A stretch of DNA of 42,861 nt. It comes from Thiomonas sp. Lineage in GTDB: Bacteria > Pseudomonadota > Gammaproteobacteria > Burkholderiales > Burkholderiaceae_C. The translations under genes were made by a program, and so were the position numbers. Under the pieces are notes generated by a model. The model ran no database searches, was not told where the DNA came from, and saw only the letters and a list, made by a program, of their open reading frames with translations. This document shows, one piece after another, positions 4,521 to 21,556 of the stretch. The stretch is from positions 22,840 through 65,700 of the forward strand of contig JAGDVQ010000128.1 in assembly GCA_023255715.1 (NCBI GenBank), written 5' to 3'. How positions within the stretch are numbered: position 1 is the stretch's first letter; every line of letters begins with the position of its first letter.

Positions 4521-5102
4521 ATGCAACACGAACTGCCCCCCCTGCCCTTCGCTCCCGACGCGCTCGCACCGCACATGTCGCGCGAGACGCTGGAATACCA
4601 CCACGGCAAGCACCATCAGGCGTATGTCAACAACACCAACAATCTGATCAAAGGCACCGAGTTCGAGTCCATGCCGCTCGAAGACATCATCAAGAAATCC
4701 AGCGGCGGCATTTTCAATAACAGCGCCCAGGTGTGGAACCACACTTTCTTCTGGAACTGCCTCAAACCCAACGGGGGCGGCGAGCCCAAGGGCGCGCTGG
4801 CTGCGGCGATCAACGCCAAGTGGGGCAGCTACGCCGCGTTCAAGGAAGCGTTCCACAAATCTGCCGTCGGCAATTTCGGCTCCGGCTGGACCTGGCTGGT
4901 CAAAAAGCCCGACGGCACGGTGGACATCGTCAACACGTCGAACGGCCAAACCCCGCTGACCACTGCCGACAAGGCCCTGCTCACGGTCGACGTGTGGGAG
5001 CACGCCTATTACATCGACTACCGCAACCGTCGCCCTGACTTTGTCACCACCTTTCTCGACAAACTGGCGAACTGGGACTTTGCCGAGAAAAATTTCGGCT
5101 GA
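4521..5102 (+). CDS. sodB: Superoxide dismutase, Fe type
   Basis: [40 protein letters not shown]...[18 protein letters not shown]...[22 protein letters not shown]. Confidence 0.96.
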
Positions 5103-5125
5103 GCTGCGCTGACAGTGCTCGAAAG

Positions 5126-5147
5126 GCCCGCTGATGCGGGCTTTTTT
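5126..5147 (+). terminator. Rho-independent terminator after sodB
   Basis: GCCCGC-TGAT-GCGGGC stem followed by TTTTTT. Confidence 0.85.
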
Positions 5148-5302: not shown

Positions 5303-7435
5303 ATGTCGACTCTCCCCCTGCGCACCTTGCCGCTTGCCGCAACCCTGCCGCCCGACTGGCGCGAGCAGGTTCGCGCCGCATTCCACGCCACCTTCGATCG
5401 CTACGAGTCGCTGTTTCAACTGCTGCAAGGCGACGAGGCGTATTTCAAAAAACCCATCGCGCTGCGTCACCCGCTGATTTTCTACCTCGGCCACACCGCC
5501 ACCTTTTTCATCAACAAGTTCGTCCTCGCCGGGATCCTTGAGCAACGCATCGACCCGCAGCTGGAGTCGATGTTCGCAGTCGGCGTCGACGAAATGAGCT
5601 GGGACGATCTGGACGAGGCGCACTACGACTGGCCGCCGGTGCAGGCGGTCTGGGACTACCGGGCCAGGGCGCGCGAGCTGATCGACGGCGTCATCTCCCG
5701 CCTGCCGCTCGACCTGAGCGACGGCTGGTGGAACAGCCCCTGGTGGGTGGTGATGATGGGGATCGAGCACGAGCGCATCCATTTGGAGACCTCCTCGGTG
5801 CTGATCCGCCAGCACGCGCTGCGCTACGTCAAGCCGCATCCGGACTGGCAGCCTTGCCGCGATGCCGGCGAGCCGCCCCAGCCCGAGCTGGTGCCGATCG
5901 CCGCGCGGCAGTTTCGCCTCGGGCGCGACCGGCGCGACCCGCAGTTCTACGGCTGGGACAATGAATTCGGCGTGCACGAGGCGCGCACCGCAGCGTTTCA
6001 AACCGGGCGCACCCTGGTGTCCAACCGCGAATTCCTCGCTTTTGTCGAGGCCGGCGCCTACCGCGACGACGCCGTCTGGAGCGAAGAAGGGCTGGCTTGG
6101 CGGCGCTTCGCCCAGGCCGAACATCCGACCTTCTGGGTGCGCGGCGCGGACGGCTGGCGGCTGCGCCTGCTCGCCGAGGAAGTGCCGATGCCGTGGGACT
6201 GGCCGGTCGAGACCAATTTTCACGAGGCCAAGGCGTTTTGCAACTGGATGGCGCGGCAAACCGGCCTGCCGTACCGTTTGCCCACCGAGGACGAATGGCA
6301 CGCGATTCGGCTGCAGGCCGGCGTGCCCGATGCGCCGCAACCCGTGCCCGCGGCGGCAAACATCGAGCTCGACCATTTCGCCTCCAGCTGCCCGGTGACG
6401 CGGTTTGCGCACGGCGAGCTGTTCGACGTCATCGGCAACGTCTGGCAGTGGTGCGAGACCTGCACCTACCCGTTCGACGGCTTCGAGGTGCACCCGGTGT
6501 ACGACGACTTCACCACTCCGACCTTCGACGACCGCCACGCGATCCTCAAAGGCGGATCGTGGATTTCCTGCGGCAATGAAGCGCTGCCTGGATCGCGCTA
6601 TGCATTCCGCCGGCACTTTTTCCAGCACGCCGGGTTTCGCTACGTGATCAGCGACGCGCCGGTGCCGCAGCTGGCAAGCAGCTATTACGAAACCGACGCG
6701 CAGGTCGCGCAATACTGCGAGTTTCACTGGGGTCAGGAATATTTTGGCGTGCCCAACTTCCCCAAGGCGCTTGCCGAGTCGTGCGTGCAGGCGATGCAAG
6801 GCCAGCCGATGCGCCGCGCGCTCGACCTGGGCTGCGCCACCGGCCGGGCGAGCTTCGAGCTGGCGCGACATTTCGAGCACGTGACGGGAATCGATTTTTC
6901 CGCGCGTTTCATCGGCATCGGCCATCAGCTCGCTGCGCAGGGGCGTATTCGCTACACCCTGTTCGATGAAGGCGAGCTCGCCAGTTACCACGAGCATGGC
7001 CTGGCCGAACACGGTCTGAGCGATTGCGTCGCGCGCACCGAATTTTTCCAGGGCGATGCGTGCAATCTCAAACCGGTCTACACCGGTTACGACCTCATCC
7101 TCGCCGCCAACCTGATCGACCGGCTTTACGAGCCGGCGCTGTTTTTGCGCGAGGTGCACCAGCGCATCGTCCCCGGCGGACTGCTTGCGATCACCTCGCC
7201 CTATACCTGGCTGACCGAATTCACCAAGCGCGAACACTGGATCGGCGGTTTCAAAAAGGACGGCGAAAACTTCACCACCCTCGACGGCCTGCACGCGCTG
7301 CTCGATGCGCACTTCGAGCGCATCGCGCCGCCACGCGACCTGCCCTTCGTCATCCGCGAGACCGCACGCAAGTTCCAGCACAGTCTCTCGCAGCTCACGC
7401 TGTGGCGGCGCCGCACCGATCCGGGGAGCGCATAG
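5303..7435 (+). CDS. ovoA: 5-histidylcysteine sulfoxide synthase / 4-mercaptohistidine N1-methyltransferase (ovothiol biosynthesis)
   Basis: DinB-like and FGE-like domains with the iron-binding motif HERIHLE (HX3HXE), GNVWQWCETCTYPF, KGGSWISCGNEA, then a C-terminal SAM methyltransferase domain (ALDLGCATGRASFELARHFEHVTGIDFS). Confidence 0.93.
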   Translation: MSTLPLRTLPLAATLPPDWREQVRAAFHATFDRYESLFQLLQGDEAYFKKPIALRHPLIFYLGHTATFFINKFVLAGILEQRIDPQLESMFAVGVDEMSWDDLDEAHYDWPPVQAVWDYRARARELIDGVISRLPLDLSDGWWNSPWWVVMMGIEHERIHLETSSVLIRQHALRYVKPHPDWQPCRDAGEPPQPELVPIAARQFRLGRDRRDPQFYGWDNEFGVHEARTAAFQTGRTLVSNREFLAFVEAGAYRDDAVWSEEGLAWRRFAQAEHPTFWVRGADGWRLRLLAEEVPMPWDWPVETNFHEAKAFCNWMARQTGLPYRLPTEDEWHAIRLQAGVPDAPQPVPAAANIELDHFASSCPVTRFAHGELFDVIGNVWQWCETCTYPFDGFEVHPVYDDFTTPTFDDRHAILKGGSWISCGNEALPGSRYAFRRHFFQHAGFRYVISDAPVPQLASSYYETDAQVAQYCEFHWGQEYFGVPNFPKALAESCVQAMQGQPMRRALDLGCATGRASFELARHFEHVTGIDFSARFIGIGHQLAAQGRIRYTLFDEGELASYHEHGLAEHGLSDCVARTEFFQGDACNLKPVYTGYDLILAANLIDRLYEPALFLREVHQRIVPGGLLAITSPYTWLTEFTKREHWIGGFKKDGENFTTLDGLHALLDAHFERIAPPRDLPFVIRETARKFQHSLSQLTLWRRRTDPGSA

Positions 7436-8541
7436 TGACCGCGCCCGACATGGCCGACCGCGCGCAAGGCGCGCTGCTCGGCGCGTTCATCGGCGAGGCG
7501 CTGGGCGTCGGCCCGCACTGGGTGTACGACCTCGACCAGCTGCGCGCCGATTTCGGCCCATGGATCGACGACTACACCGCGCCACGCCCGGGGCGCTACC
7601 ACGCCGGATTGCGCGCGGGCGACTCGTCGCAGCCCGGCTTTTTGCTTGAACTCACACTGCAAAGCCTGGTGGCATGCGGCGGATACGATGAGACCGACTT
7701 TTGCCGGCGCATCGACACCGAGTTTTTCCCGCTGATCGACGGCACGCCGCACAGCGGCCCCGGCGGCTACACCAGCCAGTCGATGCGCGAGGCCTGGCGC
7801 AAGCGGGTGCAGCAGGGTCTGCCCTGGGGTCGGGTCGGCGGTCTGGCTGACAACACCGAGGCCGCCGAGCGCACGCTGGCGATCGCGGTGCGCTATGCCC
7901 CCGATCTGGGCGCAGTCGCCCGGCATGTCGCAGCCAACGCGGCATTGACCCAGATCGATCCGACCGTGCTGGCGATGACCACCGCCTACGGCTGTGTGCT
8001 CGCGCTGCTGGTGCAGGGCGAGCCACTCGATGCGGCGATTTCCGCCAAACTGCTCGCCCGCGTGCACCGCGGCGAGCTGCCGTTTCACCACGTCACCGAT
8101 GCCGCGCTGGACGCAGTTCCGACGGGCGCCGAGCGCACGGCGCAGCCGGGCGAGTTCGCCTCGCCCGATGCGCTGCTCACCGCGGGAAGCATTGCGCGCG
8201 CGGCGCACGACCCCGATGTGCGCATCGACCCGGCGTGGAAAGTGTCGCTTGTCTACGGCATGCCGTGCGCGGTCTATCACCAATTCCCTGCGGCCTACTA
8301 TCTCGCCGCGCGCTTTGCCGACGATTTCGAAAGCGCCGTGCTGCACGCGGTCAACGGCGGCGGGCAAAACCAGGCGCGCGCGATGCTCACCGGCGCGCTG
8401 CTTGGTGCGCAGGTCGGACTGTCAGGAATCCCGCAGCGCTTCATCGACGGCTTGTTGTGCGCGCCGCGCGTGCTGCCGCTGAGCGCACGGCTTGCCGAGC
8501 AAGTCACACGCGCAAGCAAGCTGACACCCCGCGCACCCTGA
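7435..8541 (+). CDS. ADP-ribosylglycohydrolase (DraG/ARH)-family-like protein, apparently lacking canonical metal-binding Asp residues
   Basis: GTG start overlaps the ovoA TAG stop; VTAPDMADRAQGALLGAFIGEALGVGPHWVYD... and NGGGQNQARAMLTGALLGAQVGL match the ARH architecture. Confidence 0.8.
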   Translation: MTAPDMADRAQGALLGAFIGEALGVGPHWVYDLDQLRADFGPWIDDYTAPRPGRYHAGLRAGDSSQPGFLLELTLQSLVACGGYDETDFCRRIDTEFFPLIDGTPHSGPGGYTSQSMREAWRKRVQQGLPWGRVGGLADNTEAAERTLAIAVRYAPDLGAVARHVAANAALTQIDPTVLAMTTAYGCVLALLVQGEPLDAAISAKLLARVHRGELPFHHVTDAALDAVPTGAERTAQPGEFASPDALLTAGSIARAAHDPDVRIDPAWKVSLVYGMPCAVYHQFPAAYYLAARFADDFESAVLHAVNGGGQNQARAMLTGALLGAQVGLSGIPQRFIDGLLCAPRVLPLSARLAEQVTRASKLTPRAP

Positions 8542-8703: not shown

Positions 8704-8721
8704 AGTGTTTGAATTCATTGG

Positions 8722-8795
8722 GGTGGCTGATGGGACTCGAACCCACGACAACAGGAATCACAATCCTGGACTCTACCAACTGAGCTACAGCCACC
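8722..8795 (-). tRNA. tRNA-His (anticodon GTG)
   Basis: Minus strand GGTGGCTGTAGCTCAGTTGGTAGAGTCCAGGATTGTGATTCCTG...GGTTCGAGTCCCATCAGCCACC; anticodon GTG; complete cloverleaf. Confidence 0.95.
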
Positions 8796-18813: not shown

Positions 18814-20067
18814 TCAGGCGGCAAAGCCGATGTTGCGCACGTAGGCCCACACGCCAATGGCGAAGAAGGCAGCCATCCAGGTCCAGTTGACCCACACGGC
18901 AATGTCGCCCATGCGGGACACCGTGCGGTCTGCGGTGTACAGCCCCTTGATCTTGCCAGCCTTCCACAGCATGGTGGTGTAGAACGCGACCAGCGAACCA
19001 CCAACTCCCACAAACGTGGCGAAGAACCAGATCACCGCGCCCCATTCATAGTGCGGCTTGGAGGCCAGGTTGTAGTGATACGGCGCCAGATAGGCCACGC
19101 GCAGCGCCTCGCGGTCGACCGAGACGATCAGCGCCATCAGGGCATAGAGCGCCATGGCCGAATACGCTTGCAGCGCCGAGCTGCCCACCGGCACCTGGCG
19201 CGCATACAGTGCGACGCCGACGATCAACAACAAGGTCAGCCAGAACAGCGGCTGGGTGAACACCAGCATGGACGACGGCAGGCCATAGGCCCACAGCAGG
19301 CCGGTGACAAGCTGCAGCGCCACACCCCAGTACGCCGTCTTTACGCCAAGGCGGTGCGCCAGGTCGAGATAGTCCGATGGAAAGTCGGCGCGCGCGCGGA
19401 AGTAACGCGCATAGCCCAAAAGGAACACGCCCGTCATGGTCAGCGACATGACAATGAAAAAGGCAAAGCGCGACAGCTCGAAGGCGTGAATGCCCATGCC
19501 GTTCATTACCGGCACGCCGTGGGGCGCATACCACTGCATCCACTTCTGCGGAAACAGCCCCTGATACGACAGCACATGCATGATGAAGCCGTCGAACAGC
19601 AGCAGCGACAGCGCCGCGGTGGCCCACCAGACCGTGGTGTCCGGCGCCTCGGCGGCGTGCGACACGTCGTGGTTCTTGAAATAGAACACGAACCACAGGG
19701 TGTAGCCGATGCCCAGGGTGAAAATGAAAAAGATCACCCAGAATGCCGAAAGCACGTTGCTGGTGTACCACGACGGGTCATAGATGGTCTGGGTGAACAG
19801 CAGCGGCGCCACGCCGAGCACGATGGCCATCGAGACGGCGATCTTGGCCACGCCGGTCATGGCGACCGACAGCCGCGCCCAGGCGGGTTGATGACGGCGC
19901 ATGAAAGCGATGATGGCCAGCAGGCCGGAGCCCAGCGACAGGTTGACAAAGGCGATGTGAAACGCCCAGGTCAGCACGTTGAGGTATTGGAACAACCATG
20001 CAGGTGCTGGCAGGCCCGCCGGGTCCTGCAGCGCGCCGAGCATGGCGGAAACGGATGCGTTGTCCAT
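18814..20067 (-). CDS. Polytopic membrane protein, cytochrome bd subunit I (CydA)-like paralog without c-heme motif
   Basis: Multiple TM helices; LTWAFHIAFVNLSLGSGLLAIIAF matches the CydA-like first-helix His motif; 4-bp gap to the upstream CydA-like gene. Confidence 0.65.
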   Translation of the reverse strand: MDNASVSAMLGALQDPAGLPAPAWLFQYLNVLTWAFHIAFVNLSLGSGLLAIIAFMRRHQPAWARLSVAMTGVAKIAVSMAIVLGVAPLLFTQTIYDPSWYTSNVLSAFWVIFFIFTLGIGYTLWFVFYFKNHDVSHAAEAPDTTVWWATAALSLLLFDGFIMHVLSYQGLFPQKWMQWYAPHGVPVMNGMGIHAFELSRFAFFIVMSLTMTGVFLLGYARYFRARADFPSDYLDLAHRLGVKTAYWGVALQLVTGLLWAYGLPSSMLVFTQPLFWLTLLLIVGVALYARQVPVGSSALQAYSAMALYALMALIVSVDREALRVAYLAPYHYNLASKPHYEWGAVIWFFATFVGVGGSLVAFYTTMLWKAGKIKGLYTADRTVSRMGDIAVWVNWTWMAAFFAIGVWAYVRNIGFAA

Positions 20068-20071
20068 GAGG

Positions 20072-21556
20072 TCAGTCCTTTGCTTGGATGGCTTGTGCGC
20101 CCGCAGCCTGCGCAGCGGCGGTATGCAGCGGCGCCGCAACGGGCGCAGCGCGTGCGATCAGATGGCCCTCGGCGTCCACCGTGCCGGCGTTGACCGCGGC
20201 GAGGAACGTGGCCAGCGCGTGTTGTTCATTGGTCGGCAGATCGATCTTGGGCATGTAAGGCACCGAACCATGCGCCAGCGGCCCGGCGAGAAAGCCCTGG
20301 ATCATCGCCACATCCGTGGTGCCATGCAGCAGCTTGGGCAGCGGGCGCAGCGGACCGTCCTGGTTGATCGAGTGGCAGTTGGCGCAGGACATCACCGCCA
20401 GCAGACGCCCGGCCTCCATCTGGTTCTGCGGCGTGATCACGCGCAGGTCGGCCGGCACGAAGGCCGCGGTCTTGAGCAAGCCGTCCTTGGCGATCAGTGG
20501 CACCTCATCCTGGATGCCCAGCCCCGGCACGTCGCGCCCGATGACCTGATTGGAATACATGTACTGGCCGACCACCCAGGGTTTGCGCAAGCTCTCCCGC
20601 GTGCGCTCCTCCGGCCAGATGCCGGCAACCAGCAAAATGGCCACCATGCCCACAGCGATCGGCACGCGCACCGACTGGGGCTTGAGGTAGACCCACAGCA
20701 GATACAGGCCGATCAGCACCGAGGTGGTGGCCAGCGGCACAAAGGTCGTGACGCGGAAATCCACGTGGCCGAACCAGTCGGGCAGACGATCCTTGAGGAT
20801 GACCAGGGCGTTGGGCGGCAGCGTGGCCACATACCACATGAAGGCGAGCGCGCCGCCCACCAGCCCGACGATGCCGAGCTTGGCCACGGTCTGCCCGACA
20901 TCGCGCCGCAACGGATCGCCCTTGGGAATGGCGGCGACGATGATGCTGCCCACCACAGCGGCCGAGGTCAGCATGAGGAAGCCTCGGTCGGCCAGCTGCG
21001 CGGCGAAGTTGAGGTTGTAGAACGCGTCGAACACCGAACCGGTGAGATACCAGCGCTGGCTGCCCGGCCACATCATGAACGAGAGGATGCCGATGATCAG
21101 CACCAGTGTGGCCACCGAGCTGACGACGAATGTCCAGGTGATCTTCAGGTGCGTCTTCGGGTCGATCTTGCCGATGGTGTAGACCAGCGCATACACCCCG
21201 ATGACCTCGACGGTGAAGAACACCCACTCGGTCGCCCAGGCCCAGACGAAGTTGTGGATCAGTGCGGAGATGCCGCGTGGACTGGCCACAGTGACCGAGT
21301 ACCAGATTCCCGGGCCGGTGACCGAGCCCCAGATGTACGAGAACACCAGCAGGAACATGCCGTACTTCTTGATGTACTGCATGATCTCGGGCTTGTTCTC
21401 GCGCACCGAGCGGCTTTCCAGCAGGGCAAACAGCACCGCAGCACCAACCGAGGTGTTGGACGCCAGCACATGGATCGTGCCGATGATGCCCATCACCCAG
21501 GCGGTACCGATTTGGGGCACGTACCACGTGGGATACATGCCGATCAGCTCAGACAT
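20072..21556 (-). CDS. Cytochrome bd superfamily subunit I-like protein with C-terminal cytochrome c domain
   Basis: IGTIHVLASNTSVGAAVLFALLE..., FSYIWGSVTGPGIWYSVTVASPRGISALIHNFVWAWATEWVFFTVEVIGVYALVY resemble CydA helices; C-terminal VMSCANCHSINQDGPLRPLPKLLHG is a CXXCH motif. Confidence 0.75.
   Translation of the reverse strand: MSELIGMYPTWYVPQIGTAWVMGIIGTIHVLASNTSVGAAVLFALLESRSVRENKPEIMQYIKKYGMFLLVFSYIWGSVTGPGIWYSVTVASPRGISALIHNFVWAWATEWVFFTVEVIGVYALVYTIGKIDPKTHLKITWTFVVSSVATLVLIIGILSFMMWPGSQRWYLTGSVFDAFYNLNFAAQLADRGFLMLTSAAVVGSIIVAAIPKGDPLRRDVGQTVAKLGIVGLVGGALAFMWYVATLPPNALVILKDRLPDWFGHVDFRVTTFVPLATTSVLIGLYLLWVYLKPQSVRVPIAVGMVAILLVAGIWPEERTRESLRKPWVVGQYMYSNQVIGRDVPGLGIQDEVPLIAKDGLLKTAAFVPADLRVITPQNQMEAGRLLAVMSCANCHSINQDGPLRPLPKLLHGTTDVAMIQGFLAGPLAHGSVPYMPKIDLPTNEQHALATFLAAVNAGTVDAEGHLIARAAPVAAPLHTAAAQAAGAQAIQAKD

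Follow-up and report, generated by a model that had tools for sequence, protein, structure and literature searches.

What does a gene of the ADP-ribosylglycohydrolase (ARH) family do immediately downstream of an ovothiol synthase gene, with its start codon overlapping the stop codon of the synthase? The two genes lie in a stretch of 42,861 nucleotides of Thiomonas sp. DNA, the whole of which is referred to here as the window. An earlier note, made from the letters of the sequence, proposed that the ARH-fold protein has a role in ovothiol metabolism. Comparison of the pair across genomes marks the gene as a good candidate for a hitherto undescribed enzyme in this metabolism, and we favour, somewhat above even confidence, a repurposed ARH-fold enzyme without a metal site that acts in 5-thiohistidine or ovothiol metabolism in proteobacteria.

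The overlapping genes and their surroundings

The features of the locus are collected in Table 1. The identification of ovoA in the earlier note is upheld: its predicted product of 710 aa exceeds the curated cut-offs for both OvoA modules (400 bits for TIGR04344 and 170 bits for TIGR04345). The one-base overlap with the ARH-like gene is present as the note described it, and the GTG start is credible because a Shine-Dalgarno-like sequence lies 6 nt upstream and orthologues, such as that of locus L045, share the start residue. In comparison with the nearest relative, the ARH-like gene shows dN of 0.087 and dS of 0.77, and ovoA 0.095 and 0.79; purifying selection on the two genes is similar.

Table 1. 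Features of the ovoA locus and of the ARH-like gene, in window coordinates
Feature	Position	Strand	Evidence
sodB-like Fe/Mn superoxide dismutase gene, upstream of ovoA	4521..5102	+	PF02777/PF00081
Terminator-like hairpin GCCCGC-TGAT-GCGGGC followed by a T-run, after sodB	5123..5147 (about)	+	read by eye
ovoA, 5-histidylcysteine sulfoxide synthase with C-terminal 5-thiohistidine N-methyltransferase	5303..7435	+	TIGR04344 627 bits, TIGR04345 343 bits; DinB_2, FGE-sulfatase and methyltransferase domains
Shine-Dalgarno-like GGGGAG, 6 nt 5' of the ARH-like GTG start	7423..7428	+	sequence
TAGTG, base 7435 common to the ovoA stop TAG (7433-7435) and the ARH-like start GTG (7435-7437)	7433..7437	+	
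ARH-like gene, 368 aa, PF03747 (ADP-ribosylglycohydrolase family), ARH metal site absent	7435..8541	+	PF03747 184 bits; AF2 pLDDT 92.3; ARH fold in PDB search
H28, replaces the catalytic Glu of ARHs	7516..7518	+	50/50 conserved
GDSSQPG (62-68), replaces the ARH GQxTDDT metal motif	7618..7638	+	Q66 50/50
CAVYH, C278...H282, invariant Cys and His	8266..8280	+	50/50
NGGGQNQAR (307-315), replaces the ARH NxGxDADTT metal motif	8353..8379	+	Q311, N312, R315 50/50

The note had also placed the pair downstream of sodB and its terminator. The superoxide dismutase gene is there, and the hairpin that follows it can be read by eye but is absent from the list produced by a terminator scan. Just 3' of the pair, on the minus strand, lies a tRNA-His (GTG) gene (8719-8794); its position beside a unit whose substrate is histidine is probably a coincidence. 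Farther along the window, at 18814-21556, are two minus-strand genes; one matches cytochrome bd oxidase subunit I weakly (34 bits), and the adjacent one has no Pfam match.

Fold and pocket of the ARH-like protein

An AlphaFold2 model built from 50 orthologues reached a pLDDT of 92.3 and a pTM of 0.93. When it was searched against the PDB, ARH structures led the matches, with MJ1187 (1t5j; Foldseek E 1.7e-11, TM by target 0.88), the Tri1 immunity hydrolase (6dre), DraG (2woc) and ARH3 (2foz) as the best, and an ARH fold is thus predicted with high confidence. Such matches, together with the 184 bits of PF03747, would suit an ordinary ADP-ribosylhydrolase of the DraG/ARH type that came to lie beside ovoA by chance. 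The four proteins share only 16-20% identity with the ARH-like protein, however, in which other residues stand in for their carboxylate metal ligands and catalytic Glu. In alignments with generic ARHs from related genomes, GQxTDDT corresponds to G-x-x-S-Q-(A/P)-G in the ARH-like family and NxGxDADTT to NGGGQNxAR, so that S65-Q66-A/P67 and Q311-N312-x-A314 stand where TDD and DxDT provide the di-magnesium ligands. The Glu of the VEF segment is likewise exchanged for H28, which aligns to E41 of ARH3, the position that we take to be that of the catalytic Glu.

The replacing residues are themselves invariant: Q66, Q311, N312, R315, H28, H56, H218, D245, C278 and H282 are each identical in 50/50 orthologues. 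Scores against hydrolase equivalogs fall far below their cut-offs (30 of 490 bits for NF041672 and 27 of 337 bits for TIGR02662). Since the metal ligands and the catalytic Glu have given way to other invariant residues, the protein is probably not an ADP-ribosylhydrolase. We reject the ordinary hydrolase on the loss of its metal and catalytic motifs; the recurrence of the neighbourhood, described below, also speaks against it, and we consider it very improbable. The pocket looks rebuilt, not decaying, and as judged from the alignments the protein belongs to a separate subfamily of the ARH/DraG fold, one from which the di-magnesium site has been lost. We found no experiment on any member of this subfamily in the literature.

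A sister ARH-like protein outside the subfamily, of the HWxYD type, was seen in genome G075 (L012:1468-2427). It has the HW(L/Y)YD (here HWLYD) and AGDSS motifs in common with the subfamily, but its C-terminal motif, GGDSCGRA, retains an Asp; it shows 24-27% identity and is encoded away from ovoA. It may represent an intermediate step from metal-bearing ARHs to the ARH-like subfamily.

Association with ovoA and ovoB across genomes

The earlier note regarded confinement of the pair to close relatives as evidence against a common function and proposed a survey of genomes. We carried out this survey and found the pair kept well beyond close relatives. A single scan across 85,462 species genomes returned 517 relatives of the ARH-like protein, of which the best 80 were read. 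Among these 80 of 517, ovoA lies at most 6 kb from the ARH-like gene in 24; in 18 of the 24 it is immediately upstream on the same strand, and eight of the linked cases display a 4-base overlap of the two genes. Where the genes are unlinked, ovoA is still found elsewhere in the genome in 42 of the 50 genomes tested. In the tree of ARH-like proteins, the window protein falls inside a supported clade of 63 rows, in which all 59 tested genomes carry ovoA. The linked state requires at least four changes (gains or losses) on this tree; linkage was therefore gained or lost repeatedly and is not a single inherited accident.

Co-occurrence points in the same direction. In a sample of 299 genomes from the order Burkholderiales, 17 have the ARH-like gene and 43 (14% of the sample) have ovoA; every one of the 17 belongs to the ovoA-bearing set. 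Counted by genus, the 7/7 genera with the ARH-like gene are inside the 17 ovoA-bearing genera of 135 (hypergeometric probability about 2e-16 by genome and about 1.4e-7 by genus, relatedness ignored). A sample of 399 genomes of the phylum gave four genomes with the ARH-like gene, 4/4 inside the 24 with ovoA. Within genera of the order sample the ARH-like gene is patchy, yet always inside the ovoA-bearing set, and 26/43 genomes with ovoA are devoid of it. The relation is therefore one of containment, not identity, and ovothiol synthesis as such does not require the gene. These numbers bear on the simplest alternative, a coincidental local arrangement without functional meaning. A separation of 3.4 kb between the two genes in genome G001 of the same genus, and the unlinked state of most relatives, would agree with coincidence, but unlinked co-occurrence across Burkholderiales and other proteobacteria, along with repeated linkage with overlap, leaves it hardly credible.

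Across many genera, ovoA alone recurs as a neighbour. A conserved third neighbour was sought and rejected: the other shared neighbours mostly reflect single-genus synteny, as in Zoogloea. No plasmid-borne copies of the ARH-like gene were found at E <= 1e-30. Two copies each are present in G733 (C15, C13) and G873 (C10, C47), and in G733 one of the copies converges on ovoA (L294).

The earlier note stressed that nothing resembling the lyase OvoB is encoded nearby. A MalY/PatB-type PLP lyase adjoins ovoA directly in five genomes of the order; it is related to PatB, cystalysin and other C-S lyases in the PDB, and we take it as OvoB. A profile of these ovoA-adjacent lyases gave no hit at E <= 1e-30 in the window, in the genome that it comes from (95.8% complete) or in three ovoA-bearing congeners, which bears out the observation and extends it to the genome. 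Other PLP enzymes of Cys and Met metabolism are present in this genome and could supply the lyase step.

The missing lyase raises the possibility that the ARH-like protein is a non-orthologous replacement of OvoB, cleaving 5-histidylcysteine sulfoxide without PLP where the dedicated lyase is missing. The slot after ovoA usually holds either ovoB or the ARH-like gene. Dedicated OvoB—the ovoA-adjacent clade, defined by at least 440 bits, or at least 380 bits plus adjacency to ovoA—is absent in 26/27 genomes where the ARH-like gene and ovoA are linked and present in 16/29 unlinked ones (Fisher 2e-5, relatedness ignored), but the genomes counted are phylogenetically clustered. Over all ovoA-bearing genomes tested, presence of the ARH-like gene does not track absence of OvoB (17/56 vs 17/43, p = 0.40, relatedness ignored). 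The ARH-like gene and dedicated OvoB coexist in 17 genomes, once in a single row (ovoA, ovoB and the ARH-like gene in G153), while G002 and G011 have ovoA with neither. OvoB, whose fold is unlike that of the ARH-like protein—a PF03747 member, not a PLP fold-type I lyase—is moreover a broad-specificity enzyme (PMC12631010), and the other PLP enzymes of the window's genome likewise tell against a need for replacement. Coexistence in many genomes, and in one gene row, leads us to reject the ARH-like protein as a general OvoB substitute, and replacement where the lyase is missing is unlikely. For the same reason the missing OvoB, which the earlier note took as a clue to function, does not hold as a general one. 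In G153 a photolyase-like ORF follows the row (L188 3200-7600, G153:C28).

The Desulfovibrionia exception and a candidate role

Genomes without ovoA among the best 80 of 517 relatives are mostly sulfate reducers and their relatives. A sample of 120 genomes from Desulfovibrionia, the class to which one of them belongs, contained the ARH-like protein in 30/120 and OvoA in 0/120. Of 25 Desulfovibrionia proteins examined, 19 have almost the same pocket residues, and in the more divergent six these are changed. With the gene present, the pocket nearly kept and ovoA missing, the substrate in Desulfovibrionia cannot depend on OvoA. Any account of the subfamily must explain this case by a shared broader substrate, by substrate uptake or by another route to the substrate. 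OvoA uses oxygen, so an anaerobic route would, speculatively, have to differ.

The subfamily is common in this class (loci L224-L248, L100, L118 and L081). A fixed genomic partner was sought there, and none is consistent. In four Desulfovibrionia genomes (L232, L235, L238 and L239) the ARH-like gene lies next to a gene of the LigB-type (PF02900) dioxygenase family. In two genomes, ispG-like and proS-like genes, identified by reading the sequences, flank the ARH-like gene.

The exception feeds the main rival to a role in ovothiol metabolism, namely that the substrate has no relation, or only a loose one, to ovothiol (for instance a general thiol, an amino acid or a damaged cofactor) and that the gene sits with ovoA because the two share a redox-stress toolkit. 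Nearly the same pocket in genomes without ovoA, the absence of a fixed partner there and the sodB gene upstream of ovoA in the window all agree with it. The complete containment of the ARH-like gene in the ovoA-bearing genomes of the order and the recurrence of ovoA alone as neighbour do not, and we regard a general-metabolite role as possible, though clearly less probable than one in ovothiol metabolism. The proposal of the earlier note thus stands in part: the link to ovothiol is supported by the genome statistics, linkage and co-occurrence alike, but is not universal, as Desulfovibrionia demonstrate.

For the favoured role in ovothiol metabolism, we infer enzymatic activity and an OvoA-derived substrate, although the protein may bind a ligand without catalysis. 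With the di-magnesium site gone and the pocket rebuilt from other invariant residues, the subfamily would most likely comprise metal-independent, or differently cofactored, small-molecule enzymes, co-translated with OvoA where the genes touch. Candidate substrates would be 5-histidylcysteine sulfoxide, 5-thiohistidine, ovothiol, or their oxidised or conjugated forms. Our best guess at the step, a tentative one, is sulfoxide-to-thiol handling or handling of oxidised ovothiol, because Cys278 is invariant and the slot next to ovoA alternates with ovoB. A sulfenic acid, which requires a reductant, is the product of the related ergothioneine lyase (PMC4493562); an accessory protein bearing a thiol is thus conceivable, as a lead only. 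A bolder version, in which the subfamily would be dedicated to processing 5-thiohistidine by a new ARH-fold chemistry and its nearly unchanged pocket in sulfate reducers without OvoA would mark an oxygen-independent route to, or salvage of, ovothiol-like thiols in anaerobes, seems to us distinctly unlikely.

There is a precedent for finding such enzymes beside ovoA. The 5-thiohistidine N-acetyltransferase 5THNAT is also an accessory gene neighbouring ovoA and was identified from ovoA neighbourhoods by the same kind of reasoning (PMC12631010). The protein itself is unrelated to the ARH-like one: it has a GNAT fold, uses acetyl-CoA and occurs in Bacteroidota (PMC12631010). According to its authors, Seebeck and colleagues, knowledge of proteins transforming 5-thiohistidines is scant, 5THNAT is besides the ovothiol biosynthetic enzyme the sole enzyme known to recognise a 5-thiohistidine, and such enzymes must be found to learn the role of ovothiol (PMC12631010). 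Our literature search, which covered few subscription papers, found no paper linking the ARH-like or ADP-ribosylglycohydrolase family to ovothiol or ovoA. The subfamily seems to be an ARH fold that has shed its metal site, so the database label ADP-ribosylglycohydrolase is probably misleading for its members. Present in hundreds of genomes, several of them from culturable organisms, the subfamily offers another testable candidate for an enzyme of 5-thiohistidine.
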